Origin: Chitinophagaceae bacterium
GTDB taxonomy: Bacteria > Bacteroidota > Bacteroidia > Chitinophagales > Chitinophagaceae
Assembly (NCBI GenBank): GCA_003168265.1
Contig: PMSV01000024.1
Location: 372,001-436,000, forward strand
Reading direction: 5' to 3'
Length of the DNA: 64,000 nt
A program made the position numbers and the translations under genes. The stretch's first letter is position 1; the number at the start of each line of letters is the position of its first letter. This document shows positions 46,966 through 63,274 of the stretch, one piece after another. The notes under the pieces are model-generated. The model had not been told where the DNA came from, did no database searches, and saw only the letters and a list, made by a program, of their open reading frames with translations.

Positions 46966-48129
46966 TCATACGGTCACAGGATCCTTCTGCTCCATACATT
47001 GCTGGATCTCTTCAAACATCGCTTCGAGAAATTGATCGGCGTCTTTTTTTCGCAAAGCCAGAGAGGGCAGAAGCCGGATAACATTCGGTTTGGCCTCACC
47101 GGTAAAAATATGCTGGTTGAATAATAAATTTTTTCTCAGGTCTTTCAGGGAATCAGGAACATCGAAACCGATCATCAGTCCGCGGCCACGCAGGTTCAGC
47201 AATTGCGGAATCTTCTTCAATTCAGTCATCAGGTATTCGCCGACGACCTGCGCATTTGCAATCAATTCTTCTTTTTCGATCACTTCCAGCACGGCCAATG
47301 CCGCTGCACAGGCCAGGTGATTGCCGCCAAAAGTTGTGCCCAGCATCGAGTGCGTGGCCTTTATCGAAGGAGAAATAATTATGCCCGCGACAGGGAAGCC
47401 ATTGCCCATGCCCTTGGCCATGGTATAAATATCGGCTTTTACACCACTATGGTCATGTGAAAAGAACCGGCCGCTGCGCCCATAGCCGCATTGTATGCTG
47501 TCTGCAATGAAAACGGAGCCATGTTCATCGCAACACTTGCGGATGGTTTTCAGGAAACCGTCCGAAGCCGCGTGGATGCCGCCAACACCCTGAATTCCTT
47601 CAATGATTACGGAAGATATTTCCGAACCGTTTTTCCGGAAATATTCCAGCAGCGCTTCTTCATCATTAAAAGGCAGGAAGATCACATTATCGGTTTCGTT
47701 CACCGGAGCCACGATCTTCGGATTATCCGTAGCGGCTACTGCCAGGGAAGTTCTTCCATGAAAGGAACCACGGAAAGCAACCAGTTTTTTTCTTCCATTA
47801 TGAAATGAGGCCAACTTCAGCGCATTTTCATTGGCCTCCGCTCCAGAATTGCAAAGGAAAAGCTGGTAGTCCGGATAACCGGATAGTTTGCCCAGTTTGT
47901 CGGCAAGTTCTTCCTGTAAAGGTATTCGTATGGAATTGGAATAAAATCCGATCAGGCCGAGTTGCTTATTGATCCTTTCCACATAATGCGGGTGGGTATG
48001 CCCGATAGAGATCACTGCATGGCCTCCGTACATGTCAAGGTATTGCTGACCCAGGTCATCCCATACATAGGAACCCCTGGCCTTCACAATAGTGATATCA
48101 TTCACCGGGTAAACATCAAATAATTTCAT
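46966..48129 (-). CDS. argD: Acylornithine aminotransferase (class III)
   Basis: A 387-residue PLP aminotransferase. NSGAEANENALKLA and FHGRTSLAVAAT are family signatures. ADSIQCGYGRSGRFFSHD carries the Asp, and AKGMGNGFPVAGI the PLP lysine. It converts N-acylglutamate semialdehyde to N-acylornithine. It starts 11 bases after argC. The 107-base gap to argF' downstream is the widest inside the operon and shows no clear hairpin. Confidence 0.92.
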   Translation of the reverse strand: MKLFDVYPVNDITIVKARGSYVWDDLGQQYLDMYGGHAVISIGHTHPHYVERINKQLGLIGFYSNSIRIPLQEELADKLGKLSGYPDYQLFLCNSGAEANENALKLASFHNGRKKLVAFRGSFHGRTSLAVAATDNPKIVAPVNETDNVIFLPFNDEEALLEYFRKNGSEISSVIIEGIQGVGGIHAASDGFLKTIRKCCDEHGSVFIADSIQCGYGRSGRFFSHDHSGVKADIYTMAKGMGNGFPVAGIIISPSIKATHSMLGTTFGGNHLACAAALAVLEVIEKEELIANAQVVGEYLMTELKKIPQLLNLRGRGLMIGFDVPDSLKDLRKNLLFNQHIFTGEAKPNVIRLLPSLALRKKDADQFLEAMFEEIQQCMEQKDPVTV

Positions 48130-48140
48130 TTCTAATTTTT

Positions 48141-49133
48141 TTAAAATGCACTTGGTTTTAATCTTAAACCGGAACGCTCATCCAAACCGAATAGAAGGTT
48201 CATATTCTGAACTGCCTGACCCGAAGCCCCTTTAAGCAGATTGTCTATCGCCGAATGGACTACCAGATTGCCACCAACCTTTTCCAATTGAATCGCGCAT
48301 CTATTGGTATTGACTACCTGTTTCAGAAACAGGGTATCCTGGCTGATCATCGTGAAAGGATGCTCCGCGTAAAAATCCTTATAGAGTTCGATCAGTTTAT
48401 CCAGTTTCCAACCGCATTTGAGTTGCGAACTGATGAAAATGCCTCTTGTGAAATCTCCTCGCCAGGGCACGAAATGAAGCCCTCCTTCTTCTCCTTCTGA
48501 AAAATGCGCCTGCAACTGATCAATCGATTGGTTGATCTCTTTCAGGTGCTGGTGGGCCAGTGTTTTATAAGCCTGAATATTGCCCGCCCTCCAGGAAAAA
48601 TGCGAAGTATCCGACAAGCCCTGACCAGCTCCCGTTGAACCCGTAATCCCCGTACTAAATACCTGTTTCAGCAAACCCTCCCGGGCCAAAGGTAAAAGAC
48701 CCAATTGAATGGCTGTGGCAAAGCAACCAGGATTGGCAATATTGGCAGCCTTGCTTATCTCAGCCTTATTCAATTCTGGCAGGCCGTATACGAATTTTCG
48801 CGCTCCGGCAGTTGCATGAACACGTAAACGGAAATCCTGAGAAAGATCTATGATCCTGATCTTCTCGGAAACGACATTTTCATCCAGGAATTTTTTGGCC
48901 TCTCCATAACCTACACAGAGAAAAAGCACATCGATGTCCTGAAGGAGTTCTGAACTGAAATGCAGTTCCGTTTCTCCAAAGAGGTCCTTATGAACTTCAT
49001 GAAGCGGTCGATCGACCGAGCTTTTACTGTGCGCATAGCTGATTTCTGCGCGGGGATGATTCAGCAATAGCCGGATCAGTTCACCGCCGGTATATCCCGC
49101 TCCTCCAATAATGCCTGCCCTGATCTTTTTCAT
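48141..49133 (-). CDS. argC: N-acyl-gamma-glutamyl-phosphate reductase
   Basis: A 330-residue NADPH-dependent reductase. GIIGGAGYTGGELIRLLLNHP is the dinucleotide loop. The catalytic cysteine is in IANPGCFATAIQLGL, and HFVPWRGDFTRGI completes the active site. It reduces N-acylglutamyl phosphate to the semialdehyde. It lies 62 bases after the cupin gene. The family has two size types; 330 residues fits the bacterial type with a shorter C-terminus. Confidence 0.94.
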   Translation of the reverse strand: MKKIRAGIIGGAGYTGGELIRLLLNHPRAEISYAHSKSSVDRPLHEVHKDLFGETELHFSSELLQDIDVLFLCVGYGEAKKFLDENVVSEKIRIIDLSQDFRLRVHATAGARKFVYGLPELNKAEISKAANIANPGCFATAIQLGLLPLAREGLLKQVFSTGITGSTGAGQGLSDTSHFSWRAGNIQAYKTLAHQHLKEINQSIDQLQAHFSEGEEGGLHFVPWRGDFTRGIFISSQLKCGWKLDKLIELYKDFYAEHPFTMISQDTLFLKQVVNTNRCAIQLEKVGGNLVVHSAIDNLLKGASGQAVQNMNLLFGLDERSGLRLKPSAF

Positions 49134-49195
49134 CTTTATAACCTTAATTTTTTCTATATATCAGATGGAACCTCCCAATATGCACCTGCCCCGTT

Positions 49196-49555
49196 TCATC
49201 GATCTATATTTATTCTGTCCCATTTTGTCGATGGCCTGGAACTCAATACAAATTCCAGGTCCCCTGGCCCTTCATTCAAGATCCGGTGCTTTTGGCCTGG
49301 CTCGATCTGGATGCCTGCATGGCAATTCACGTGAATTCTTTCCCCCTCGATTTCAAATACGGCCTCTCCTTTGAGAATATAAAAAAACTGGCCGGCTTGC
49401 TGGTGGAAATGCTCTTGCTCGTCAGTGCCGGGTGGCATCCTTTCGTATTTCACGGAGAGGGAATCCCAATCCGCAAGATCCCATCCTTCGCATTGGTTCC
49501 CCCAGATATAATGTCTCATGGGATTCTCTTTGGAAACCTTTCTTGCTGTGCTCAT
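49196..49555 (-). CDS. Small cupin-domain protein inside the arginine operon
   Basis: A 119-residue single-domain cupin. Motif 1 is PPGTDEQEHFHQQAGQFFYILKGE, with histidines and glutamate as metal ligands. Motif 2 is IQIEPGQKHRILNEGPG. It starts inside the argG stop (ATGA), so it is translationally coupled to argG. Enzymatic role unknown. No cupin is required for arginine synthesis, so it may be regulatory or detoxifying. Its position is conserved only as far as I can infer from one genome. Confidence 0.8.
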   Translation of the reverse strand: MSTARKVSKENPMRHYIWGNQCEGWDLADWDSLSVKYERMPPGTDEQEHFHQQAGQFFYILKGEAVFEIEGERIHVNCHAGIQIEPGQKHRILNEGPGDLEFVLSSRPSTKWDRINIDR

Positions 49556-50745
49556 TTCGGTTCGTTGATCTTGTTGAAAATGGCGGTCTGGTTCCCGAAG
49601 ATCCGGGCAAAACCTTTTACGTCATCCCCGGTCCATCCCTTATTCATTTCCCCATAGGAACCGAACCGGGAACTCATAAGGTCATGAGGGCTCTCGATGC
49701 CAGTTACCGTATAACGATAGGGTTCCAGGGTGACAAAGACCTTTCCGCTCACCGTCTCCTGGGTATCCTGCAGGAATTTTTCCACATTGCGCATGGTCGG
49801 ATCCAGCATCTGGCCTTCGTGCAACCAGTTTCCATACCAATTACTCAGTTGTTCTTTCCAGTACAATTGCCATTTGGTAAGGGTATGTTTTTCCAGGAGA
49901 TGATGGGCTTTTATGATTATGACGGGTGCGGCGGCTTCGAAACCCACTCTGCCCTTGATCCCGATGATCGTGTCTCCCACATGGATATCCCGTCCGATTC
50001 CGAAAGGCTGGGCAAGGGCCTGCAAAAATTGAATGGCTTCCACCGGGTGTTCGAAAATCTGCTCATCGACCCCAACCAATTCTCCCCTTAGGAAGCTCAG
50101 ATTGATGTTTTTTTCACCCGATGACGTAACCTGGGTTGGCCAGGCTCCCTCTGGCAGATAATCCCTGGAATTCAAGGTCTCTTTTCCGCCAACTGAAGTG
50201 CCCCAAAGCCCCTTATTAATACTGTATTGTGCCTTTTCAAAATTCATCTCCACCTGGTGATCCTTCAGGAAACGAATCTCCTCTTCCCGGCTCAACTGAA
50301 GATCACGGATCGGAGTCAGGATCTCCGTTTCAGGTATCATTCCCTGGAAAACCATATCAAAGCGAACCTGGTCGTTCCCGGCACCCGTACTTCCATGTGC
50401 TACATAAGCAGCCCCGAGTTCCCGGACATAGCGGGCTGTTGTGATGGCCTGCACCATCCTTTCTGCGCTCACGCTTAAGGGATATGTCGCGTTTTTGAGC
50501 ACATTTCCAAAGACCAGGTATTTGATGCAGCTCTCATAATACTCCTTTTTCACATCCACAGACAGGAAGGATGCCACACCTAATTTCCTTGCACGAACTT
50601 CTATCTGGTCTATTTCCTCCTGCTGAAAACCCCCTGTATTGACGGTCAATGCATGTACTTCCAGATGCCTGACCTTATTCAGGTAAATCGCGCAGTAAGT
50701 GGTATCTAATCCGCCGCTGAATGCAAGTACAACCTTATTGTTCAT
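49552..50745 (-). CDS. argG: Argininosuccinate synthase
   Basis: A 397-residue N-type ATP pyrophosphatase. VLAFSGGLDTTYCAIYL holds the PP-loop. AYVAHGSTGAGNDQVRFD and EDGE-like ATP/citrulline residues follow, and VGDTIIGIKGRVGFEAAAP is family-specific. It joins citrulline and aspartate to argininosuccinate. In this pathway free citrulline is supplied by the M20 deacylase. It starts 15 bases after the GNAT gene. Confidence 0.94.
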   Translation of the reverse strand: MNNKVVLAFSGGLDTTYCAIYLNKVRHLEVHALTVNTGGFQQEEIDQIEVRARKLGVASFLSVDVKKEYYESCIKYLVFGNVLKNATYPLSVSAERMVQAITTARYVRELGAAYVAHGSTGAGNDQVRFDMVFQGMIPETEILTPIRDLQLSREEEIRFLKDHQVEMNFEKAQYSINKGLWGTSVGGKETLNSRDYLPEGAWPTQVTSSGEKNINLSFLRGELVGVDEQIFEHPVEAIQFLQALAQPFGIGRDIHVGDTIIGIKGRVGFEAAAPVIIIKAHHLLEKHTLTKWQLYWKEQLSNWYGNWLHEGQMLDPTMRNVEKFLQDTQETVSGKVFVTLEPYRYTVTGIESPHDLMSSRFGSYGEMNKGWTGDDVKGFARIFGNQTAIFNKINEPK

Positions 50746-50760
50746 CGCTTAGAAGATTGT

Positions 50761-51465
50761 TTATAACAGATTAAAAAAATAAAAGAGCATGGATTTGGGT
50801 CTGGTCTGGCCGTTGATTTCTTTTTTAAGGAATGGCTTTAACAATTTCCATTGTTTGATCTTCATGAAACGCTCATAAAGTTTACTGTGTTCCCTGAAAT
50901 CATTGGTCGTTTCCTCCGGCTCAAAATGGTCTTTAGGATCGTAGAGCATCGCTGTGCACATGCAGTTCTTCCTTTCCTTGCTCGTCAGGATCTCATAATT
51001 GACACAGCTCTTGCAGCCCGCCCAGAAAGCTTCGTCCTGGGTAAGCTCAGAATAGGTTACGGGCTCATAACCCAGTTCCGAATTGATCTTCATTACTGCC
51101 AATCCGGTGGTCAGGCCGAAGATCTTGGCTTCGGGGTATTGCTGACGGCTCAGGTTGAAGATCTTTTTCTTGATCAACCTGGCCACGCCGCTCTTCCGGA
51201 AATCAGGCGTTACGATCAATCCTGAATTAGCTACATATTCGCCATGACTCCAGGTCTCGATATAGCAGAACCCGGCCCAGATTCCGCTGGAAGTGAAGGC
51301 AATCACTGCCTTTCCTTCCCGCATTTTTTCTTTAATGTAATCCGGGCTTCTTTTGGCAATGCCCGTACCCCTGGCTTTAGCGGAAGACTCCATAACATCG
51401 CAGATGATCTGCGCAAAATCCTGGTGGGTTTCATCGGCAATCAATATTTTAAAATCCTGTTCCAT
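50761..51465 (-). CDS. GNAT acyltransferase heading the arginine operon, probable N-acylglutamate synthase
   Basis: A 234-residue protein. The GNAT core is about 1-150: VANSGLIVTPDFRKSGVARLIKKKIFNLS is the acyl-CoA loop (RKSGVA in place of Q/RxxGxG/A). A C-terminal segment holds four cysteines in WAGCKSCVNYE and KNCMCTAMLYD. As the first gene of a full arginine operon that lacks argA and argJ, it is the natural candidate for making N-acetyl- or N-succinylglutamate. From memory, a Bacteroides enzyme of this kind has been shown genetically to do so. I chose the ATG at 51465 because the upstream in-frame extension lies in leader sequence. Confidence 0.75.
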   Translation of the reverse strand: MEQDFKILIADETHQDFAQIICDVMESSAKARGTGIAKRSPDYIKEKMREGKAVIAFTSSGIWAGFCYIETWSHGEYVANSGLIVTPDFRKSGVARLIKKKIFNLSRQQYPEAKIFGLTTGLAVMKINSELGYEPVTYSELTQDEAFWAGCKSCVNYEILTSKERKNCMCTAMLYDPKDHFEPEETTNDFREHSKLYERFMKIKQWKLLKPFLKKEINGQTRPKSMLFYFFNLL

Positions 51466-51765
51466 TTTCTTTAGGTTAAATAAGTGTGAGTCAAATAGAT
51501 ACTGCAGGGATGGATACATGTCCTGCTGGCAGGACAACAGTACCGCCATAGCAGTGGACACTATTGTAAGCGAGTATCAACGTCGTACCCAAAAGGGAAT
51601 AACGGGACGAAGGGAAAAAATAACGCACGGAAGCGCTATAAAAAACCCACGCTTATTGAAGGCGTGCAATATCACCTGGGACATATGTGATATGGGTGAG
51701 TTTTTTTTCATTTCATAAATAGATGAAAATGAGTCAAAATAATTTAACGACGCAAAGAAAAACAA
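51466..51765 (-). promoter_or_regulatory. Structured leader of the arginine operon
   Basis: On the minus strand a -7-like TATTTTG (51741-51735) has CAA-complement TTG about 21 bases upstream (51765-51763). The leader of ~260 bases then holds an ATATCAC/GTGATAT inverted repeat (51669-51693), a GC-rich CACGC/GCGTG hairpin (51648-51666) followed by six T, and a perfect GTCCTGC/GCAGGAC repeat (51520-51535). A 44-codon frame (51711-51577) runs through these and ends in two arginine codons. Attenuation or operator control is possible but unproven. Confidence 0.4.
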
Positions 51766-51844
51766 TTTTTTTAAAGATTGCCCATATTTATTGTGAAATT
51801 TTGGTGAATTGAATTGGTTGGACTTAGAGGAACCTTCCGGATTT

Positions 51845-52603
51845 TCAGGGTTTAAGGACGGGCACGGAATGAACGGCATCGCTCATTTCCATGATCAGGG
51901 AAGAATTTTTCTCAATGGCATTTCCAACAACGATAAGGTCGGCTCCTGCCCTGCAATTGAGATAGGCTTTCTCCGGTTCCCTGATACCGCCTCCGACGAC
52001 CAGCGGGATCTCGATCTGTGCCCGGACGGCAGCGATCATGTCTTCATGAATGGCCTTACGTGCTCCGCTTCCTGCGTCCATATAAATGAGTTTCATACCA
52101 AGCATTTCGGCAGCCAAAGCTGTGCAGATAGCGATTTCGTTTTTATCGGCGGGGATGGGAGTTGCATTGCTGATATAGGACACCGTGGTCGGCGCTCCGC
52201 CATCAATCACCATATAACCGGTGGAGATGATTTCCAGGCCGCTTTGTTTGACAAAAGGCGCAGAAATTACATGCTGTCCGATCAGGAGTTCAGGATTTCT
52301 TCCGGAGATCAGAGAGAGATAGAGCAAACCATCCGCAAATTTGGAAACCTGGGATGGGGTGCCCGGAAAAAGAATTACGGGTATCGTACTGTTTTTTTTG
52401 ATTCGCTGGACCACTTCGTCCAGGTGATTGGAGATCACCAGGCTTCCGCCAACCAGCAAGTAATCTACAAGGGCCTTACTAGTGAGTTCGGTCAGTTCAT
52501 CGATTTTTTTTGCATCGGTCTTGTCAGGGTCAATGAGCACCGCCAGGGATTTTTGCCCTCTTTGTTTTCTGGTCCTGATGGATTCATAGATTTGATGCTT
52601 CAT
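51845..52603 (-). CDS. pcrB: Geranylgeranylglyceryl/heptaprenylglyceryl phosphate synthase
   Basis: A 252-residue TIM-barrel prenyltransferase. LAVLIDPDKTDAKKIDEL binds glycerol-1-phosphate. LFPGTPSQVSKFADGLLYLSLISGRNPELLIG and YMDAGSGARKAI, then VVGGGIREPEKA with the phosphate-binding glycines, complete it. It makes the ether lipid precursor by joining a prenyl diphosphate to sn-glycerol-1-phosphate, an archaeal-type reaction with homologues across Bacteroidota. The start is set at 52603. The upstream 24 bases are also open. Confidence 0.88.
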   Translation of the reverse strand: MKHQIYESIRTRKQRGQKSLAVLIDPDKTDAKKIDELTELTSKALVDYLLVGGSLVISNHLDEVVQRIKKNSTIPVILFPGTPSQVSKFADGLLYLSLISGRNPELLIGQHVISAPFVKQSGLEIISTGYMVIDGGAPTTVSYISNATPIPADKNEIAICTALAAEMLGMKLIYMDAGSGARKAIHEDMIAAVRAQIEIPLVVGGGIREPEKAYLNCRAGADLIVVGNAIEKNSSLIMEMSDAVHSVPVLKP

Positions 52604-52976
52604 TTTCCTTCCTTTCGATTCGTGCAAAAATGCAAAAACTTTTCGGGTTTAGATAATGATTAACGCAAAAAACAGGGAATCCGGATTTATCCGGATTAGG
52701 GCTGGGGGGAGCCAGGCTTCAGGAATCTTCAAAGTTATCATGAAACATTCGTGAAACGGCCTTTTCTCTAAGGCTAATTTTTTTTTTCATTTTCTCCAAA
52801 AATAACTTCTCGGAAAAATCCGCCAGAATGTGCAAAAATCAAGAGATTCAATGCCCGTCTGCACTTCAAAAACGAATAACTATTTTTTCCACAGTTTGTT
52901 GATATTTCAGGACGGGTAATATCAAAATCAAAAAATATTTTCGCTTTCCCCTTAACAATTTCTTAATACTACCCAG
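52604..52976 (+). promoter_or_regulatory. Intergenic region upstream of the ribonucleotide reductase
   Basis: The gap holds two ATCCGGAT palindromes exactly 10 bases apart (52679-52686 and 52689-52696), together an AATCCGGAT/ATCCGGATT inverted repeat. Further down, GCCTT-TTCTCT-AAGGC (52759-52774) is followed by TAA and ten T, a weak terminator. A -7-like TATTTTCG lies at 52936-52943. I found no cobalamin-riboswitch B12 box. Confidence 0.4.
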
Positions 52977-55900
52977 ATGAGCAATAAACAGTATAGCAAT
53001 AAAAAAGATTTTCCAATGAAAGGCCTGGCTATCACCCGCCGATTCACCCATGAAAATGTGGACCCTTTCAGCCAGTTCGAATATGATTACCGGTGCTCTG
53101 TAATCCGCAATCCTACAGGGGAAATCGTATTCGAAATGAACAATGTTGAAGTCCCCAGGCAATGGAGCCAGATCGCAACGGATATTCTGGCTCAAAAATA
53201 TTTCCGCAAAGCGGGAGTCCCCCAGCCGGACGGATCCCTGGGAAGGGAGACTTCCGTCAAACAGGTCGCCCACCGCCTGGCAAATTGCTGGCGTGTCTGG
53301 GGCGAGCGGTACAGTTATTTTGCTTCCTCAAAAGACGCCCAGATCTTCTATGAAGAGATGGTCTATTGCATTCTGAATCAGGCCTGCGTTCCGAATAGTC
53401 CTCAATGGTTCAATACCGGCCTTCATGAAAGCTATGGCATCAAAGGCAAAGCCCAGGGACATTATTTCGTGGACCAGGTCGACGGACAACTGAAAAAATC
53501 CACTTCCGCCTATGAAAGGCCCCAGCCTCATGCCTGTTTTATCCTGAGCGTTGAAGATGACCTCGTGAACGAGGGGGGGATCATGGATCTCTGGGTTCGG
53601 GAAGCCCGGATCTTCAAATACGGATCCGGAGTAGGCACTAATTTTTCCAGCATCCGGGGCGAGGGAGAAAAACTAAGCGGCGGAGGTACTTCCAGCGGCC
53701 TGATGAGCTTTCTTAAGATCGGGGACCGTGCTGCCGGAGCGATCAAATCCGGAGGCACCACCCGGCGGGCAGCAAAAATGGTCTGCCTGGACCTTGATCA
53801 TCCCGAAATAATAGATTTCATCAACTGGAAGGTCGAAGAAGAGAAAAAAGTGGGCGCCCTCATCGCTGCCGGTTATACCAGCGATTACGAAGGAGATGCC
53901 TACAAGACTGTTTCGGGACAGAATTCAAATAATTCAATCCGCATACCGAACGAATTTTTTGAGAAACTGGAAAAAGAAGAGGACTGGGAACTCAGGGCCC
54001 GCAGCGATGGCAGGGTTATGAAGAGATTTCCGGCAAGGGAAGTTTGGAATCAAATTGCGTATGCAGCATGGCGTTGCGCTGACCCGGGTACCCAATACGA
54101 CACCACCATCAATGAATGGCATACGTGCCCGAATGGTGGCCGTATCCGGGCTTCCAACCCTTGCATCACAGCCGATACCCTTATAACCACTGACAGGGGT
54201 CTCGAACGCATGGGCGATCTGGTTGGGCAATCAAGGGGGATCAAAAGTGCCGATGGTAAAATGCACTGGGTCGAAAATATCTTCCCGACAGGTACAAAAC
54301 AAGTATACACCCTGACAACCAGGTCGGGTTACAGGCTTAAGCTGACAGCCGATCATAAAGTCCTGACGGCTAACCGCGGAGATGTGCCTGCCGCAGAACT
54401 AACCAAAGATGACCTGGTCCTTCTTGTAAAAGGTCAATTCGGTCCTGAGACCTCCGGCTCTGCAGACATTGCCCAGTTGATAGGATTGCTGGTTGGGGAC
54501 GGATGCATCACTTCCCTGAACGAAACCGCCGCGGACGGTGAACGCAGACGGATAGCCTTCCTGAATATGGACAAGGAAGAAGGACTGGTGTTACAATGGG
54601 CGAATGAGCACATCAATATCCAGCTCTGCGCTCAATGGGGTGAGAACAATAAGCATGGAAATGTCCGTGAAAATGCCACCACCCTCCTTGTGTCCGTAGG
54701 CTCCCCACGGATACTCTCGTTGATGGAAAAGTTTGCCGTCCTGGATAAGGGAAGTGAAAGAAAGACCTTAAAAGATGTTTGCTTCCTGATGAACCGGGAA
54801 GAGCAGGCCGCAATTCTAAGAGGCTTATTCACGGCGGATGGATGTGTAGCCAATTACGGCGTCAAATCCCAATATATAGCCCTCGACTCTTGCTCGAAAG
54901 AGCTTTTGCAGCAGGTGCAACTGATGTTGTTAAATTTCGGGATCAAGTCCAAGCTTTATGGGAACCGTCGCGCCGGAAAACTTTCCAACCTGCTTGCAGA
55001 CGGGAAAGGTGGTACGAAGGAATATGAAGTGAAGGAAATGCATTCCCTTCGCATCAGTAGGAATTCGCGTCTCTTGTTTGAAGAGTGTATCGGATTTATG
55101 GAAGAAAGCCCCAAGGCGGCACAGTTGCGGCAGTTGAACAGCATGGTCTCCGCATATCGCGAATCGCTGTCGGACGAGGTCCTTTCCCTGGAATTCACCG
55201 GAGTTGAAGACGTATTCGATCTCACCGAGCCGGAGACCCACCACTTCGTGGCCAATGGGATAGCGATCCACAATTGCTCCGAATACATGTTCCTCGACAA
55301 TACGGCCTGTAACCTGGCCTCTGTAAACCTCCGCAAATTCTATGATGAGCAGACCAACCTTTTTGATGTGGAAGGTTTTGAATTCACCTGCAGGATCTGG
55401 ACCATCGTATTGGAAATCTCCGTACTGATGGCACAGTTCCCCAGTAAGGAAGTAGCGCAGCTTTCCTACGACTATCGGACCCTTGGACTAGGCTATGCCA
55501 ATCTCGGCTCCATGCTTATGGTGATGGGAATTCCTTATGACAGTGAGGAAGCGAGAGGCATTGCCGGAGCCGTCACGGCCATCATGACTGGGATTTCCTA
55601 CAAGACCTCAGCCGAAATGTCCGACGTGATGGGACCCTTCCCGAGGTATGAAGAAAACAAGGCCGACATGCTCAGGGTGATGCGCAACCATCGACTGGCG
55701 GCCTATGATGCCGACGAATATGAAATGCTTCAGATCAAGCCCCAGGGGATCAAGGCAAAGTATTGCCCGGATTACCTGCTTACTGCGGCTACGAAAGCAT
55801 GGGATGATGCTGTTCAACTGGGCGAGAAATTCGGATACAGAAATGCACAGACTACGGTGATCGCACCTACGGGTACGATCGGTCTGGTCATGGATTGCGA

Positions 55901-57527
55901 TACCACGGGCGTGGAACCAGATTTCGCCCTGGTCAAGTTCAAAAAACTGAGCGGTGGAGGCTATTTCAAGATCATCAACCAGTCAGTTCCGGCCGCTCTT
56001 AAGAATCTTGGTTATACTGCGAAAGAAAGCGATGCGATCGTGAAATATGCTGTAGGATCCGGCACTTTTGCGGGGACTCCCTATATCAACCATCAGTCTC
56101 TCAGCGAAAAGGGATTCATTGCCGAAGAGATCAAAAAACTGGATGTGTCGGTTTCTTCCGCCTTCGAAATCGGGTTCGTTTTCAATGTTTATACCCTTGG
56201 CGAAGAATGTCTGCAACGCCTGGGCTTCAAACCGGAAGAATATTTCAATTTCGAATGGAGCCTGCTCGAAGCCCTCGGATTCACAGAAGAACAAATAGAA
56301 GCCGCTAACGATTATGTCTGCGGCACCATGACTATTGAAGGCGCTCCGGCTCTCAGGGCCGAGCATCTGGCCGTTTTTGATTGTGCCAATAAATGCGGAA
56401 AAAAAGGTGAGCGATATATCCATGCTCATGGACATATCCGTATGATGGCCGCTGCCCAGCCCTTTATCAGCGGAGCCATCTCCAAGACCATCAATCTCCC
56501 GAATGAGGCGGTGATCGAGGAAATCGCAGATTCTTACATGTTGAGTTGGCAACTGGGCCTGAAAGCCTGTGCACTTTATCGCGACGGGTCCAAATTGTCT
56601 CAGCCCCTGAGCAACAAATCCGACAAAAAGAAAAAGACCGAAGAAGAAACAACGGAAAAATCGGCTTCCTCAACTGAACAATCTCACTCCGCTTCCCTTT
56701 CGATGTCGGAATCGAATATCGTGGACCTGAGCAAATTGACGGTTCAGGAATTACTGGAAGAAGTAACCAAAAGGGTACAGGCTTCTCCTGACACAAAATT
56801 GAAAAGAGCCCTGGCCACTATTGTTGAAAGAAGAACTCTACCGGCCAAACGCCGCGGATTTACGCAAAAGGCGAAGATCAATGGTCAGGCCTTATTCCTA
56901 AGGACCGGTGAATACACTGATGGGACGGTTGGTGAGATCTTCATTGATATGGCTAAGGAAGGAGCCACTATGCGCAGCATGCTCAACTGCTTTGCCATTT
57001 CCATTTCGATCGGCCTCCAATATGGAGTGCCTCTGGAAGAATTCGTTGAAAAATTTGTTTTCACCCGGTTCGAACCTTCGGGCATGGTAGATCACCCGAA
57101 TATCAAGAATGCCACTTCCATTGTGGATTTCATTTTCCGCGTGCTGGCATATGAATACCTGGGGAGGACGGACCTGGTGCATGTGCTGGACAAACCAGAA
57201 GTCATGAATACAGGGACGGATGACTGGGATGAAATCCCGACCTCCCTGGAATATGAAAAAAAAACGCCTGAATTAAGCGATGTCCGTGTAGTGGCCAAAT
57301 CCGCCTCCCAGGCTCCCGCTCAGAAAACAGCGCAGCCTCAGATCAAATCGACTGTAACGAATAGCAGAGCTTATTCAAAAGCAGAAGCCAATATGGATGC
57401 CCTGAATGCGGCGGCTAAAAGCATGCAAAGCGATGCGCCTGCTTGTAATACCTGCGGGCACATAACCATACGCAGCGGCACCTGTTATAAATGCCTCAAT
57501 TGCGGTAATAGCATGGGTTGCAGTTAA
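52977..57527 (+). CDS. nrdJ: Adenosylcobalamin-dependent ribonucleotide reductase with intein
   Basis: A 1516-codon gene encoding a class II reductase of ~1145 residues after splicing. N-terminal extein is 1-395, intein 396-766, C-terminal extein 767-1516. The active-site motif ASNP-C-SEYMFLD is rebuilt by splicing; the cysteine after the junction (767) is the thiyl-radical cysteine. NTACNLASVNL, APTGTIG and a radical-site region follow. The C-terminus has a TSCPD domain (about 1270-1390) and a cysteine-rich end (CNTCGHITIRSGTCYKCLNCGNSMGCS pattern) for redox relay and zinc. It reduces ribonucleotides using B12 and needs no oxygen. No nrdAB or nrdDG is in the window. Confidence 0.93.
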   Translation: MSNKQYSNKKDFPMKGLAITRRFTHENVDPFSQFEYDYRCSVIRNPTGEIVFEMNNVEVPRQWSQIATDILAQKYFRKAGVPQPDGSLGRETSVKQVAHRLANCWRVWGERYSYFASSKDAQIFYEEMVYCILNQACVPNSPQWFNTGLHESYGIKGKAQGHYFVDQVDGQLKKSTSAYERPQPHACFILSVEDDLVNEGGIMDLWVREARIFKYGSGVGTNFSSIRGEGEKLSGGGTSSGLMSFLKIGDRAAGAIKSGGTTRRAAKMVCLDLDHPEIIDFINWKVEEEKKVGALIAAGYTSDYEGDAYKTVSGQNSNNSIRIPNEFFEKLEKEEDWELRARSDGRVMKRFPAREVWNQIAYAAWRCADPGTQYDTTINEWHTCPNGGRIRASNPCITADTLITTDRGLERMGDLVGQSRGIKSADGKMHWVENIFPTGTKQVYTLTTRSGYRLKLTADHKVLTANRGDVPAAELTKDDLVLLVKGQFGPETSGSADIAQLIGLLVGDGCITSLNETAADGERRRIAFLNMDKEEGLVLQWANEHINIQLCAQWGENNKHGNVRENATTLLVSVGSPRILSLMEKFAVLDKGSERKTLKDVCFLMNREEQAAILRGLFTADGCVANYGVKSQYIALDSCSKELLQQVQLMLLNFGIKSKLYGNRRAGKLSNLLADGKGGTKEYEVKEMHSLRISRNSRLLFEECIGFMEESPKAAQLRQLNSMVSAYRESLSDEVLSLEFTGVEDVFDLTEPETHHFVANGIAIHNCSEYMFLDNTACNLASVNLRKFYDEQTNLFDVEGFEFTCRIWTIVLEISVLMAQFPSKEVAQLSYDYRTLGLGYANLGSMLMVMGIPYDSEEARGIAGAVTAIMTGISYKTSAEMSDVMGPFPRYEENKADMLRVMRNHRLAAYDADEYEMLQIKPQGIKAKYCPDYLLTAATKAWDDAVQLGEKFGYRNAQTTVIAPTGTIGLVMDCDTTGVEPDFALVKFKKLSGGGYFKIINQSVPAALKNLGYTAKESDAIVKYAVGSGTFAGTPYINHQSLSEKGFIAEEIKKLDVSVSSAFEIGFVFNVYTLGEECLQRLGFKPEEYFNFEWSLLEALGFTEEQIEAANDYVCGTMTIEGAPALRAEHLAVFDCANKCGKKGERYIHAHGHIRMMAAAQPFISGAISKTINLPNEAVIEEIADSYMLSWQLGLKACALYRDGSKLSQPLSNKSDKKKKTEEETTEKSASSTEQSHSASLSMSESNIVDLSKLTVQELLEEVTKRVQASPDTKLKRALATIVERRTLPAKRRGFTQKAKINGQALFLRTGEYTDGTVGEIFIDMAKEGATMRSMLNCFAISISIGLQYGVPLEEFVEKFVFTRFEPSGMVDHPNIKNATSIVDFIFRVLAYEYLGRTDLVHVLDKPEVMNTGTDDWDEIPTSLEYEKKTPELSDVRVVAKSASQAPAQKTAQPQIKSTVTNSRAYSKAEANMDALNAAAKSMQSDAPACNTCGHITIRSGTCYKCLNCGNSMGCS
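54162..55274 (+). mobile_element. Intein with LAGLIDADG homing endonuclease, in the RNR active site
   Basis: An in-frame insert of 371 codons (residues 396-766 of the precursor). Block A starts at C396 (CITADTLITTDRG). Block B has TADH with H460. The DOD endonuclease motifs are LIGLLVGDG (501-509, D508) and LRGLFTADG (614-622, D621), both with the catalytic acid intact. Block F reads VFDLTEPETHHFVANG, and block G ends IHN before C+1 (767). All splicing residues and both endonuclease acids are present, so it is probably an active mobile intein. Confidence 0.93.
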
Positions 57528-57954: not shown

Positions 57955-58431
57955 ATGCTAATTCAATTCGGATATGAAAAAAAACAGGTATTACAGGCCC
58001 TTCGTTATCATTTTATTACCCGCACAGAAATAAAGTTCCTGATCATTATAGTTAACCTCTTCACCATCGCATCGGCTGCCCTGCTTTATATGCATTTGAT
58101 CCAACCCGTTGCCTTTTTAGCCTTTTCCATACTCTGGTTTTTGTTATTGATCTCGATATGGCGCATACTGCCCTTGAGCATCTATCAGAAAAACGAAACT
58201 TTCCGGGACCAGTTCACCATGTCGATCACCAGCTCCGAAATCATTCTTGGTACACGTAAGGGCGAGCATGGCTGGGCATGGACTGATTTCAGCACCTTCC
58301 TTGAAAGCACATATTTCTTTCATCTCTATTTCAACAGCAGATCCTTTTTCCTGATCCCCAAGGACGGATTCGAAGGACTGATTGAATTGCAGGAATTCCG
58401 GCAATTGCTCCGGGAAAAAATAGGGAAATGA
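57955..58431 (+). CDS. YcxB-like membrane protein
   Basis: A 158-residue protein. Two transmembrane helices (about 30-50 and 53-72) are followed by a soluble C-terminal domain (about 80-158) with FTMSITSSEIILGTRKGEHGWAWTDFSTFLES and FNSRSFFLIPKDGF. This fits the YcxB-like family, membrane proteins of unknown function often near transporters. It converges on gldB with 1 base between stops. Confidence 0.7.
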   Translation: MLIQFGYEKKQVLQALRYHFITRTEIKFLIIIVNLFTIASAALLYMHLIQPVAFLAFSILWFLLLISIWRILPLSIYQKNETFRDQFTMSITSSEIILGTRKGEHGWAWTDFSTFLESTYFFHLYFNSRSFFLIPKDGFEGLIELQEFRQLLREKIGK

Positions 58432-58432
58432 T

Positions 58433-59449
58433 TTACCTGGGATTGTATTTTGTCTCTTCGAAAATTTTCTTCGGATCCTTATTCATCAATTCCACCGGGG
58501 AGATCGAAGGGTTGTTTTCTACATATTTTTTGACGATCTGCCAGCCTACCCATTGGCCGATATTGCCGGGTGAAGCAGGAGGCATGCCCTGGGTATTGGG
58601 TGCATCCCCGATATAGTCCTTTATGACATCCGGATCAATAGTGTACAATGCATTGGTTTGCAGGAAAAAATTCCAGATCAAACCCTCATTGCCCTGACAC
58701 CAGTCCATTTGTTTTTGAGTAAATCCCGTGACCAGGCTATCCGGGCTCTCCGGAAGAAAAAGACTTGTCAGATACCAGTATTTTCCCTTCTCCACCATTT
58801 GTTCGATCAGGGATTTGTTCTCGCTCCGGTCTGCGAACAGATCTTCGGCGATCGCCTTCATGCAGTTCGGCGTAATATAATTGGGCTCAAAGCGTCTGGA
58901 AATATAGGTCGGATACATTTCCTGCCCCTGAAGGCTATTGTAAAATGAAAAATGTTGTCCTGCATAGAGCTGGAGGCCAATGGCCAGGCTGTATTGTGTG
59001 ATGGCTGCTCCGGGTGCGTCGAAGGGCCCGATAAAAGCAACGACTTCTTGCGGAAGCTGGTAATGGGGGAAATAGTATTTGACATATCGGAAAGACTGGG
59101 CCAGTTCTTTTTCGAGCCATCTCAGGTCTTCAAATTTATTGTCGATCGAGTCTTTCGCGGGCAGATAGCTGGTCAAAAACTGGCGGCAGGCAATAAAACT
59201 AATCTGGCTGGTATCGCTCAAGGGCTCTGCACCCAGGATATTGACGATAAAATCATTCAGGAAATAGGGAAATTCCCCGTTGAGTTTTTTCAGCCCTTCC
59301 ACTATGTGATTGCTATCCAGAGTGAAAAAAACCTTGTCGAAACGGTCAATCTTCACGGTTACTTTGATATCGGAAACATCAGGCAGGTTTTTTCCGTGGC
59401 GGCAGGCCGTCAGGCTCAGCAGCAGTAACAGGTAAGCTATTTTTTTCAT
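58433..59449 (-). CDS. gldB: Gliding motility lipoprotein GldB
   Basis: A 338-residue lipoprotein: MKKIAYLLLLLSLTACRHG gives a signal with lipobox TAC. The body contains LPDVSDIKVTVKIDRFDKVFF, NGEFPYFLNDFIVNILGA and a C-terminal SPVELMNKDPKKIFEETKYNPR region that matches the GldB family. GldB is needed for gliding in Flavobacterium and is linked to the type IX secretion machinery. The long in-frame extension upstream (to 59650) overlaps the divergent nadE promoter and is not used. gldC, often next to it, is not here. Confidence 0.85.
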   Translation of the reverse strand: MKKIAYLLLLLSLTACRHGKNLPDVSDIKVTVKIDRFDKVFFTLDSNHIVEGLKKLNGEFPYFLNDFIVNILGAEPLSDTSQISFIACRQFLTSYLPAKDSIDNKFEDLRWLEKELAQSFRYVKYYFPHYQLPQEVVAFIGPFDAPGAAITQYSLAIGLQLYAGQHFSFYNSLQGQEMYPTYISRRFEPNYITPNCMKAIAEDLFADRSENKSLIEQMVEKGKYWYLTSLFLPESPDSLVTGFTQKQMDWCQGNEGLIWNFFLQTNALYTIDPDVIKDYIGDAPNTQGMPPASPGNIGQWVGWQIVKKYVENNPSISPVELMNKDPKKIFEETKYNPR

Positions 59450-59542
59450 GATTTTTGTAAACGGAATTAATAAACGATTTGGAAAAGAATTTATGCGGCT
59501 CCGCATTTCCATCCTGTCTGGGGCCGTGAATCCGGTTTGACG

Positions 59543-59550
59543 TAAATTTG
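59543..59550 (+). promoter_or_regulatory. Bacteroidota -7 box (TAAATTTG)
   Basis: Exact TAnnTTTG with 4 bases to the nadE ATG, predicting a leaderless transcript. Confidence 0.5.
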
Positions 59551-59554
59551 TTTT

Positions 59555-61270
59555 ATGAAAATTGCAATGGCCCAGCAAAACTACCACATTGGTAATTTTG
59601 AAAAAAACCTTCAGAAAATAAAAGAAGGCATTGAACGGGCAAAGGAACAAAAAGCAGACCTGGTCTTATTTTCCGAATTATCAGTTTGCGGTTATCCTCC
59701 CCGGGATTTTTTGGAATTCGACGACTTTATCCTCAAATGCTATGATTCGATTAACCAGATCAGGGAACTGGCCGATACCATTGCAGTGGTCGTAGGCGCA
59801 CCCTGCCGCAATGATTCAGATAAGGGGAAACCCCTTTTCAATGCAGCCTGGCTGCTCTATGAGAAAGAGGTAAAAGGCATCGCCCATAAAACCTGCCTGC
59901 CTACCTATGATATTTTTGACGAATACAGGTATTTTGAACCGGGTTTTGAATGGAATTTGATTCCTTTCAAAGGCAAAAAGATTGCGTTGACCATCTGTGA
60001 AGATATCTGGACCCTGGGCGATAACCCGCTTTACAGGCAATGGCCGATGGAAGCCCTGAGTAGGCAAATGCCCGACCTCATTCTCAATATCTCGGCCTCA
60101 CCCTTCGATTATGATCATGATGATGACCGCAAAGAAGTGATCCGGGCCAATGTTTTGAAATACCAGTTGCCGCTTTTCTATTGCAATGCCGTCGGGTCAC
60201 AGACCGAAATAGTATTTGACGGGGGAAGCCTGGCCTATGACGCTTCGGGGAATATCCTCAGGGAAATGAGTTATTTCGAAGAAGACTTCGCCGTCATCGA
60301 ACTGGATGCAAACACAGTAATTGCAAAATCGCAAAACACCCTGCCCGCAGCCAGGACGCTCGACCGTGAAATGAGGGTCTACAAGCAAAATGAGCCCTCC
60401 CGAATCATTGAATACCTGACCGCCGAAAACAATATCCGCCAGATACATGATGCCCTGATCCTGGGTATCAGGGATTATTTCGGAAAAATGGGTTTCAGAA
60501 AAGCCATTCTTGGAAGCAGCGGGGGCATCGACAGCGCGGTCACCCTTTGCCTCGCCTGCGAGGCCCTCGGCGAGGATCATGTCAAAGCCATTCTAATGCC
60601 CTCTCCCTATTCCAGCGAACATTCCGTAAGCGATGCCAGGGCTCTTTCCGAAAACCTCCGCAATGATTACAGGGTCATCCCTATCCATGATATATACGAA
60701 GATTACCTGAAGACCCTGAAACCCATATTCGGAGACCTACCCTTCGGTCTTGCAGAAGAAAATGTTCAGAGCCGGATAAGGGGTAACCTCCTCATGTCCA
60801 TGGCCAATAAATTCAGTTATATCCTCCTTAATACATCCAACAAAAGCGAATTAGCAACGGGATACGGCACCCTCTATGGGGATATGGCTGGCGGCCTCAG
60901 CGTATTGGGAGACCTCTATAAATTGCAGGTTTATGCACTCGCCCGTTATATCAATCGCAAGCGGAATCTGATCCCCATAAACATCATCGAAAAGCCGCCT
61001 TCGGCAGAACTGAGGCCGGAACAGAAAGACAGTGACAGCCTGCCTGATTATGCGATCCTGGATAAAGTACTCTACCAGTACATAGAAAAAAGACAGGGGC
61101 CCAGGGAGATCATTGCCATGGGAGTAGAGGAGGCCCTTGTGAAAAGAATCTTAAAACTGGTCAATACGAATGAATACAAACGCAACCAGTTTTGCCCTAT
61201 CATCCGTGTAAGCTGTAAGGCCTTTGGAGTAGGACGACGGGTGCCCATCGTAGGCAAATACCTCGGTTGA
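59555..61270 (+). CDS. nadE: Glutamine-dependent NAD+ synthetase
   Basis: A 571-residue two-domain enzyme. The nitrilase-type glutaminase (about 1-270) has its Glu in LFSELSVCGYPP, Lys in AHKTCLPTYDIFDE and Cys in LTICEDIWT. The synthetase domain (about 290-571) has the PP-loop GSSGGIDSAV and NTSNKSELATGYGTLYGDMAGG. It amidates nicotinate adenine dinucleotide to NAD with glutamine. In Bacteroidota nadE often neighbours gldB; here they are divergent. Confidence 0.95.
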   Translation: MKIAMAQQNYHIGNFEKNLQKIKEGIERAKEQKADLVLFSELSVCGYPPRDFLEFDDFILKCYDSINQIRELADTIAVVVGAPCRNDSDKGKPLFNAAWLLYEKEVKGIAHKTCLPTYDIFDEYRYFEPGFEWNLIPFKGKKIALTICEDIWTLGDNPLYRQWPMEALSRQMPDLILNISASPFDYDHDDDRKEVIRANVLKYQLPLFYCNAVGSQTEIVFDGGSLAYDASGNILREMSYFEEDFAVIELDANTVIAKSQNTLPAARTLDREMRVYKQNEPSRIIEYLTAENNIRQIHDALILGIRDYFGKMGFRKAILGSSGGIDSAVTLCLACEALGEDHVKAILMPSPYSSEHSVSDARALSENLRNDYRVIPIHDIYEDYLKTLKPIFGDLPFGLAEENVQSRIRGNLLMSMANKFSYILLNTSNKSELATGYGTLYGDMAGGLSVLGDLYKLQVYALARYINRKRNLIPINIIEKPPSAELRPEQKDSDSLPDYAILDKVLYQYIEKRQGPREIIAMGVEEALVKRILKLVNTNEYKRNQFCPIIRVSCKAFGVGRRVPIVGKYLG

Positions 61271-61335
61271 GACCAGATTCGTCTGCCTTTCGTGTCCGTA
61301 AAATCAAATTGTTAAAAATCCCACGGGGCATAATA

Positions 61336-61362
61336 TTTGTTGAAACCCTTATTCGTATTTTG
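61336..61362 (+). promoter_or_regulatory. Promoter of the moxR operon
   Basis: TTTG (61336-61339) and TATTTTG (61356-61362) are 16 bases apart, resembling the Bacteroidota TTG/TAnnTTTG pair with one base missing from the -7 box. The moxR ATG follows 19 bases later. Confidence 0.45.
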
Positions 61363-61381
61363 CACAACCTAATAAAAATCT

Positions 61382-62383
61382 ATGGTTTATACAGCGGAAG
61401 AAATCAGGCAATTAAATGAGAAGATTCAATACCAGGGCGTATTCATAGACCGGCTTAGGGATGAGATCAGCCGGGTCATCATCGGACAACAGCATATGCT
61501 TGATCGCCTGTTGATCGGACTGCTAAGCAACGGGCATATTTTATTGGAAGGCGTTCCGGGACTGGCAAAAACCTTATCCATCAAATCCATGGCCCAGGCC
61601 ATTCGTGCGAACTTCAGCAGGATCCAATTCACGCCCGACCTCTTGCCGGCCGATGTGACAGGCACCATGATCTATAACCAGCAACGACATGAATTTGTGG
61701 TCAGGAAAGGCCCCATATTCGCCAATTTCGTTCTGGCCGATGAAATCAACAGGGCTCCCGCCAAAGTTCAGAGCGCATTGCTGGAAGCAATGCAGGAAAG
61801 GCAGGTAACAATTGGAGATTCCAGCTACAAACTGGAAGAGCCTTTTTTGGTAATGGCCACCCAGAACCCGCTTGAACAGGAAGGCACCTATCCTTTGCCT
61901 GAAGCACAGCAGGATCGTTTTCTGATGAAAGTGATCGTGGGCTATCCGACGAAATCCGAAGAGCAACTCATCATTCGCCAGAATGTGCAGGGCACCGGAT
62001 TCCCGAAGGTAGGCCAGGTTGTATCCATTCAGGAGATATTGACGGCCAGGGAACTGACCAAACAGGTGTACATGGATGAAAAGGTGGAGCATTATATTTT
62101 GGATATCGTCTTTGCCACCCGCAGTCCGGAAAAATACAGGCTCGAAAAGCTAAAGTCCATGATCGCTTACGGAGGATCGCCGAGAGCCAGCATTAACCTG
62201 GCCCTTGGAGCCAAGGCCCACGCATTCCTGAATAAGCGGGGTTACGTGATTCCTGAAGATGTGCGCAGCATTTCCAAAGATGTGATGAGACACCGAATCG
62301 GTCTGACATATGAAGCGGAAGCGGAAAACGTGAATACGGAAAATGTGATCGACGATGTACTGCGGGCAATACCAGTTCCCTGA
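61382..62383 (+). CDS. moxR: MoxR-family AAA+ ATPase
   Basis: A 333-residue AAA+ protein. Walker A LLEGVPGLAKT (about 56-66), Walker B VLADEINRAPAKVQSALLEAMQERQ, and a sensor 1 TQNPLEQEGTYPLPEAQQDRF match the MoxR group. MoxR ATPases act as chaperones that load metal cofactors or assemble complexes containing von Willebrand A domains. DUF58 and BatD-like genes follow immediately, the standard aerotolerance (bat) operon start in Bacteroidota. Confidence 0.92.
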   Translation: MVYTAEEIRQLNEKIQYQGVFIDRLRDEISRVIIGQQHMLDRLLIGLLSNGHILLEGVPGLAKTLSIKSMAQAIRANFSRIQFTPDLLPADVTGTMIYNQQRHEFVVRKGPIFANFVLADEINRAPAKVQSALLEAMQERQVTIGDSSYKLEEPFLVMATQNPLEQEGTYPLPEAQQDRFLMKVIVGYPTKSEEQLIIRQNVQGTGFPKVGQVVSIQEILTARELTKQVYMDEKVEHYILDIVFATRSPEKYRLEKLKSMIAYGGSPRASINLALGAKAHAFLNKRGYVIPEDVRSISKDVMRHRIGLTYEAEAENVNTENVIDDVLRAIPVP

Positions 62384-62395
62384 TAAATAAAAAAA

Positions 62396-63274
62396 ATGCT
62401 CAGCACAGCAGAAATATTAAAAAAGGTACGTGAGCTTGAAATCCGGAGTAAAAAGCTTACCAACCATATTTTTACCGGCGAATACCATAGCGCCTTTAAA
62501 GGTCGTGGAATGAGTTTCAGGGAAGTGAGGGAATATGCGGCCGGAGACGATATCCGTTTCATCGACTGGAATCTATCAGCCCGTTTCAATCATCCATTCA
62601 GTAAACTCTTCGAAGAAGAGCGCGAGCTCACTGTGATACTGCTCATCGATATCAGCGCTAGCTCCCTGTTTGGAACTCTGCATGCCCTGAAAAAAGAGAT
62701 CATTATCGAAATCTGCGCCGTGCTGGCATTCTCAGCCATCAACAACAACGACAAAATAGGCGCGATTTTTTTCACAGACCGGATTGAAAAATACATTCCT
62801 CCAAAAAAAGGAAGACAACATGCCCTTTATATTGTCCGTGAAATGCTGACCATGGAACCCAAAAGGAAGGACACCCAGATCTCACAGGCCATTAGGTTTT
62901 TCAATAATACCATCCGGAACAAAAGCATTGCATTTTTGCTGAGCGATTTTTTGGACGATAAATTCGAAGATGCGCTGAAAGTGGCTGGAAAAAAACATGA
63001 TATCACGGGAATTAAGATTTATGACCGGATGGACATGCAAATGCCCGAACTCGGGATGCTGGAAATCCAGGACGCGGAGACAGGAGAGATACTCTGGGTC
63101 GATACGGAGGATTTCCTTGTGCGAAAGAATTACCAGGAAGAATTTTTCAAATCGACAGAATATTGTAAGAATGCTTTTCTGAAATCCGGTAGCGACCTGC
63201 TGCATATTCGCACGGATGAAGATTATGTCAAAGTGCTCAAGAAGTTTTTCATAGGAAGAAACAGAATGGCTTAG
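62396..63274 (+). CDS. DUF58 domain protein (vWA-like)
   Basis: A 292-residue cytoplasmic protein. FSFREV-type start GRGMSFREVREYAAGDDIRFIDWNLSARF is the DUF58 signature. A degenerate von Willebrand A domain follows with VILLIDISASSLFG in place of DxSxS (MIDAS). It works with MoxR in complex assembly. It starts 12 bases after moxR and the next gene starts 3 bases after it. Confidence 0.9.
   Translation: MLSTAEILKKVRELEIRSKKLTNHIFTGEYHSAFKGRGMSFREVREYAAGDDIRFIDWNLSARFNHPFSKLFEEERELTVILLIDISASSLFGTLHALKKEIIIEICAVLAFSAINNNDKIGAIFFTDRIEKYIPPKKGRQHALYIVREMLTMEPKRKDTQISQAIRFFNNTIRNKSIAFLLSDFLDDKFEDALKVAGKKHDITGIKIYDRMDMQMPELGMLEIQDAETGEILWVDTEDFLVRKNYQEEFFKSTEYCKNAFLKSGSDLLHIRTDEDYVKVLKKFFIGRNRMA

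Follow-up and report, generated by a model that had tools for sequence, protein, structure and literature searches.

It was found that the nrdJ gene of a Chitinophagaceae bacterium almost certainly carries a class 1 intein with a homing endonuclease at the NP/C site (the slash marks the insertion point) of the only ribonucleotide reductase (RNR) gene detected in the genome. There it would live as a selfish element that its insertion site protects and that is lost at times and gained horizontally at others. The window, i.e. the whole 64,000-nucleotide stretch that was analyzed, lies on contig PMSV01000024.1 of assembly GCA_003168265.1, and all coordinates refer to it. This kind of NP/C intein is already known, and the intein of the window is a new member; what sets it apart is its place in the only reductase detected. 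It offers a clean natural case of a selfish element inside the catalytic motif of an apparently sole reductase, in one genus with intein-bearing and intein-free members. Thus, while the phenomenon itself is well known, the system lends itself to measurements of what an intein costs and to tests of conditional splicing.

The insert and its host gene

The nrdJ ORF (52977-57527, forward strand) encodes 1516 amino acids, a class II RNR with the intein inside (Table 1). Residue numbers of the precursor assume the ATG at 52977 as the start, while the alignments of family homologues begin at about residue 7-15, so that translation may in fact start from the ATG at residue 14. The NrdJ models PRK06556 and TIGR02504 match above their cut-offs, and PRK07562 matches with an E-value of 0, just below its cut-off. 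The alignment of the N-extein plus C396 with PDB 1xje (Thermotoga maritima NrdJ) ends at residue 322, which I take to be the radical cysteine, and in the match of the C-extein to PDB 7b9p, C767 opens at residue 476. C187 and C778 (C407 after splicing) are presumably the second and third active-site cysteines, respectively. The assignment to class II follows from the B12-dependent RNR models, from C187, C396 and C407 in the spliced product, and from the Glu of NPCSE. The tail of the protein resembles a cysteine-rich domain described in PMC5704485. Upstream of nrdJ, on the reverse strand (46966-52627), lie genes for a class III aminotransferase, a semialdehyde dehydrogenase and an argininosuccinate synthase (arginine-biosynthesis-like) and a PcrB-family gene, as well as an ORF without a Pfam match (50761-51561). 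Downstream (57955-63274) lie YcxB-like, GldB gliding lipoprotein, NAD synthase, MoxR-type AAA ATPase and DUF58 genes.

Table 1. Features of the intein-bearing nrdJ gene in window coordinates
Feature	Position	Strand	Evidence
N-extein of NrdJ, residues 1-395	52977..54161	+	Ribonuc_red_2_N and Ribonuc_red_lgC matches
C187 (PQPHACF)	53535..53537	+	position from alignment
Intein, 371 aa, C396-N766; splicing domain (class 1 type) split by LAGLIDADG endonuclease	54162..55274	+	
Intein Cys1 (C396), first nucleophile; residue -1 is Pro	54162..54164	+	C in 63/63 aligned relatives
Block B TxxH, intein T62-H65 (H65 = precursor H460)	54345..54356	+	
Endonuclease region, approximate limits chosen by hand, intein residues 101-325	54462..55136	+	
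First LAGLIDADG aspartate, intein D113 = precursor D508	54498..54500	+	
Second LAGLIDADG aspartate, intein D226 = precursor D621	54837..54839	+	
Penultimate His and terminal Asn, precursor H765-N766 = intein H370-N371	55269..55274	+	
C-extein of NrdJ including stop codon; first residue C767	55275..57527	+	PDB 7b9p match
C778 (C407 after splicing; NTACNLAS)	55308..55310	+	position from alignment
Cysteine-rich C-terminal tail of NrdJ (CNTCG...CYKCLNCG...GCS)	57441..57524	+	sequence

In the precursor, residue 395 is the last of ASNP; the insert follows as C396 to N766, and C767 opens CSEYMFLD. The original prediction had placed a LAGLIDADG intein at 54162-55274, directly before the radical cysteine. 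This proved correct to the base, with intein and LAGLIDADG models matching the insert, and the residues it had named (C396, H460, D508, D621, H765, N766 and C767) are all there. In Pfam, the precursor matches LAGLIDADG_3 (E 1.1e-18, residues 608-706) and Intein_splicing (E 1.1e-14, above cut-off); in NCBIfam, intein_Nterm (TIGR01445, residues 396-464, E 2.3e-09) and intein_Cterm (TIGR01443, residues 745-767, E 6.8e-06) both match above cut-off. Both ends of the intein also match solved inteins in a sequence search of the PDB. C1, TxxH in block B, the C-terminal His-Asn and the cysteine at +1 make it a class 1 intein by sequence, and its two motifs with the acidic residues D113 and D226 are those of a LAGLIDADG endonuclease. 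A degenerate pattern for the SNPC codons has three matches in the window against 0.69 expected, and as many were found in 6 of 100 shuffles, which makes this pattern uninformative.

Empty sites and distribution of the NP/C allele

Is the insert absent from related reductases? The original prediction had called for an alignment with intein-free nrdJ genes; same-genus and same-family homologues indeed read SNPCSEY without an insert, and all 29 family loci that were fetched (L005-L033) have an empty site, as does one further locus, L034. Therefore, the idea that the 371 residues are a normal domain of the enzyme, which the original prediction had itself raised, is excluded; nothing but the in-frame position of the insert speaks for it, and the match of intein and LAGLIDADG models to the insert likewise makes it practically impossible.

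The genus set comprised 33 genomes, including that of the window, whose rows were read by eye. The N segment (to residue 396) and the C segment (from 766/767) are contiguous in 27 of the 32 other genomes, counting the intein-free contig of bin G775, while the rows do not resolve the intein state of G776, G778, G779 and G783. The intein is sporadic, being present in two of the 32, one of them cut off at a contig end. Chitinophagaceae bacterium LS_FP_2_bin.143 (G796; locus L065, JAICXX010000046.1) has a full intein. The other, the metagenome-type bin G775, has a contig that ends within the intein (C211, locus L170) and also an intein-free contig (C605, L171). A population polymorphism in this bin was considered and rejected; the 76-bp overlap of the two contigs is 87% identical, which indicates two separate lineages or copies, not a single pair of alleles.

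In a sample of 394 genomes of the family, the allele occurs in the window's own genome alone (0 of 393 others). Three other genomes gave matches of 28-34% (L158, L159 and L160); the inteins of L159 and L160 sit before C187, and L158 ends in a different context, IHN/CGVGIDIST. The different intein before C187 (PQPHA/CFILS) was seen in several family or genus members, namely G030 (L034/L160), G570 (L159), G788 (L173) and G781 (L174). In L034, L173 and L174, the NP/C site is empty.

A protein search of 395 genomes of the phylum gave 40 with matches; in 28 of them, the genome of the window not counted, the allele sits between SNP and C. The splice residues are present in 28 of 28, and D113/D226 and K201/K235 are conserved in 26 of 28. 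The L062 intein (361 aa) has lost the endonuclease acids and the L063 intein (229 aa) has lost most of the endonuclease, both with intact splice residues; these two fit the decay stage of the homing cycle. The remaining 11 genomes gave weaker matches, among them L064 with an insert before C187.

Scanning named genome contigs yielded 217 confirmed relatives. Among the best 80 of the 217 loci, all 80 have the NP/C placement as judged by the flanking residues, and positions +1 to +3 read CSE in 78 and CVE in one and are cut off in one. The record titles of the same best 80 include Chlorobiota, Planctomycetota, Chloroflexota, Acidobacteriota, Rhodothermota, archaeal bins and others, many of them metagenome bins. 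The invariance of D226 in the alignment of scan relatives is partly due to construction, as the scan pattern was GLFTADG, and the phylum protein search (26 of 28) gives the fairer count. A shared insertion point and sequence kinship both place the intein of the window in the NP/C allele family of RNR inteins.

The three active-site cysteines of NrdJ (C187, C396 and C407, window numbering after splicing) each have an intein ending directly before them in some relatives (loci including L102, L112 and L155), so that in these relatives each of the three acts as the +1 nucleophile of an intein, the C407 site being occupied in three loci. A 2345-aa ORF of an Eremiobacterota bin (L102, JAQBPK010000242.1) appears to carry all three and one more at 595/596.

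Viral-type loci have the intein at NP/C in 12 of 13 cases, L155 having it before C407; for L152 and L153, no match to the extein of the window was obtained at the threshold used. A plasmid or phage vector was considered and rejected. The best match in the viral_contigs search was 49% identical. Phage records gave 67 matches, each below 60% identity, the best-ranked being 29.7% among the 20 of 67 listed, and two plasmid records matched (29.0% and 31.0% identity). In the literature within reach, which left out most subscription journals, no intein is named for this organism or family.

Descent of the intein and constraint on its endonuclease

In the intein tree, the intein of the window pairs with that of L065, and the two join Chlorobi, Ignavibacteria, a Kapabacterium and a SAR324 bin in a single group with good support. 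The host-gene tree places nrdJ of the window with that of L065 among genomes of family f1. From these two to Chlorobiaceae, the median distance is 0.74 for the intein and 1.21 for the host gene, a ratio of 0.61, which is weak evidence since ratios of 0.82 (within Ignavibacteria/Kapabacteria) and 0.93 (between these and Chlorobiaceae) are also seen among other groups; among other carriers, the ratio spans 0.23-2.68.

Vertical inheritance from a common ancestor of Chitinophagaceae and Chlorobi/Ignavibacteria, followed by loss almost everywhere, has to be weighed here. A host-gene tree uniting the two groups was not rejected (AU p 0.67; likelihood 8.3 units above the quick free tree), and the intein/extein ratio of 1.45 between the window and L065 is near the median of 1.37 within Chlorobiaceae, as co-inheritance within the genus would give. 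Nevertheless, this history is unlikely, given the absence of the allele from all 393 other family genomes sampled and, more weakly, the lower divergence of the intein than of the host gene across the groups. Since the AU test leaves the alternative tree standing, the horizontal reading rests on the sporadic distribution and, weakly, on the divergence ratios; these favour horizontal spread of the intein, with Chlorobi/Ignavibacteria as its nearest relatives outside the genus.

A recent acquisition finds no support: synonymous sites of the window and L065 are saturated relative to each other, in intein and extein alike, and give no date for the entry into the genus. The dN value between the two is 0.170 for the endonuclease region and 0.160 for the splicing region. 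The endonuclease region is thus as constrained as the splicing region, which is consistent with, but not proof of, function.

Expected splicing, its possible control, and known RNR inteins

By established intein chemistry, Cys396 would attack the Pro395-Cys396 bond in an N-S acyl shift, C767 would take over the N-extein via trans-thioesterification, Asn766 would cyclise with the assistance of His765, and an S-N shift would yield the native ...SNPCSEY... bond. C767 would therefore serve first as a splicing nucleophile and afterwards as the thiyl-radical residue. In an intein-free nrdJ, the endonuclease would cut the same conserved coding site and repair would copy the element in; the intein would persist, shielded by its site, with losses and horizontal gains. 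With 371 residues between Asn-Pro and the radical cysteine C767, the precursor is expected to be inactive. Many inteins tolerate Pro at -1 poorly, and the reaction may therefore be slow.

Does the host depend on splicing? The genome is a 4.30-Mb draft in 24 contigs with an estimated completeness of 100%. The original prediction had made its case for dependence subject to another reductase not being encoded elsewhere, and none was detected: in a family search of the 24 contigs, PF02867 was found only in nrdJ, and PF00268 and PF13597 were not found. In control genomes, the same searches for PF02867, the class I small subunit (PF00268) and NrdD (PF13597) match in 11, 7 and 6 of 14, respectively. 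It follows that the viability of the host should depend on splicing, as far as gene content tells. In the genus, reading the rows by eye shows a distant alpha-like match on another contig in 18 of 33 genomes; G776 has no match apart from this one. Of the 28 further carriers in the phylum, eight have a class I small subunit, three others have NrdD, and 17 have neither, second NrdJ copies lying outside this count.

The original prediction also held that Cys1 could make splicing sensitive to redox state or zinc, for which no specific support was found. Most inteins begin with a cysteine. Across 63 aligned relatives, no cysteine other than C1 is invariant, and no conserved partner cysteine was found in their splicing domain; C115, conserved in 60 of 63, lies inside the endonuclease motif, and 26 of the 63 have Cys in column 78, where the intein of the window has none. 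The extein residues from -1 to -4 are P, N, S and A, without a cysteine. Pro at -1, which had gone unremarked, is a more pointed mechanistic question than redox or zinc. According to PMC6195587, redox control of the Mycobacterium smegmatis DnaBi1 intein acts through a disulfide of the catalytic cysteine with a second, non-conserved cysteine. Because that partner is itself non-conserved, non-conservation does not exclude gating here; it gives no reason to expect it.

The broader proposal that splicing is a control point, in which, given that no second reductase was detected, active NrdJ is limited either by the rate of an unfavourable splice at Pro-Cys or by Cys1 forming a reversible disulfide with the radical cysteine at +1, coupling the supply of DNA precursors to redox state, with catalytic thiols as conserved and irreplaceable landing places favoured by inteins, is very unlikely to hold. 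It is a most improbable explanation, too, that the intein is a beneficial switch, with redox, metal or temperature gating its splicing and dNTP synthesis held back until conditions are good. The absence of another detected RNR and the expected inactivity of the precursor would suit a switch, and precedents may be seen in the DnaBi1 disulfide (PMC6195587) and in Aquifex aeolicus NrdB, which has higher iron content and activity when made with its intein (PMC8772380). However, a conserved regulator would not be expected to show such sporadic presence, in two of the 32 other genomes of the genus, and neither the splicing domain nor positions -2 to -4 provide a conserved partner cysteine. A selfish element thus remains the preferred reading.

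RNR inteins are numerous, about 80 having been curated in RNRdb in 2009 (PMC2795772), and inteins generally insert close to active sites, on average 8.3 Å from active-site residues, compared with 21.1 Å for other C/S/T sites (PMC3359363). The L065 intein of the same genus shares the site, is also 371 aa long and is 76% identical, while its genome differs in having a distant second RNR alpha-like match. The RNR inteins of Chlorobi, Ignavibacteria and the Kapabacterium (within L066-L083, named after their record titles) share the NP/CSE junction and the architecture, with 370 aa and 61-67% identity; their hosts differ, the barrel core of NrdJ being about 61-67% identical to that of the window. 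The Mth RIR1 mini-intein is a class II RNR intein with Pro at -1, as in the window, but it is not known to carry an endonuclease, and neither is the NrdJ-1 split intein, whose PDB entry 8ubs is a weak sequence match to the intein of the window. NrdJ-1 occupies the same conserved RNR loop, which bears out the earlier statement that the region of the thiyl-radical cysteine is a known intein target; it differs in being split, with native exteins NPC and SEI, in its insertion one residue downstream, after the cysteine, and in having Ser at +1 (PMC13123727). The A. aeolicus NrdB intein is alike in being a LAGLIDADG intein (346 residues) between RNR active-site residues that splices to give active enzyme (PMC8772380), and differs in residing at another site, in the small subunit of a class I RNR.
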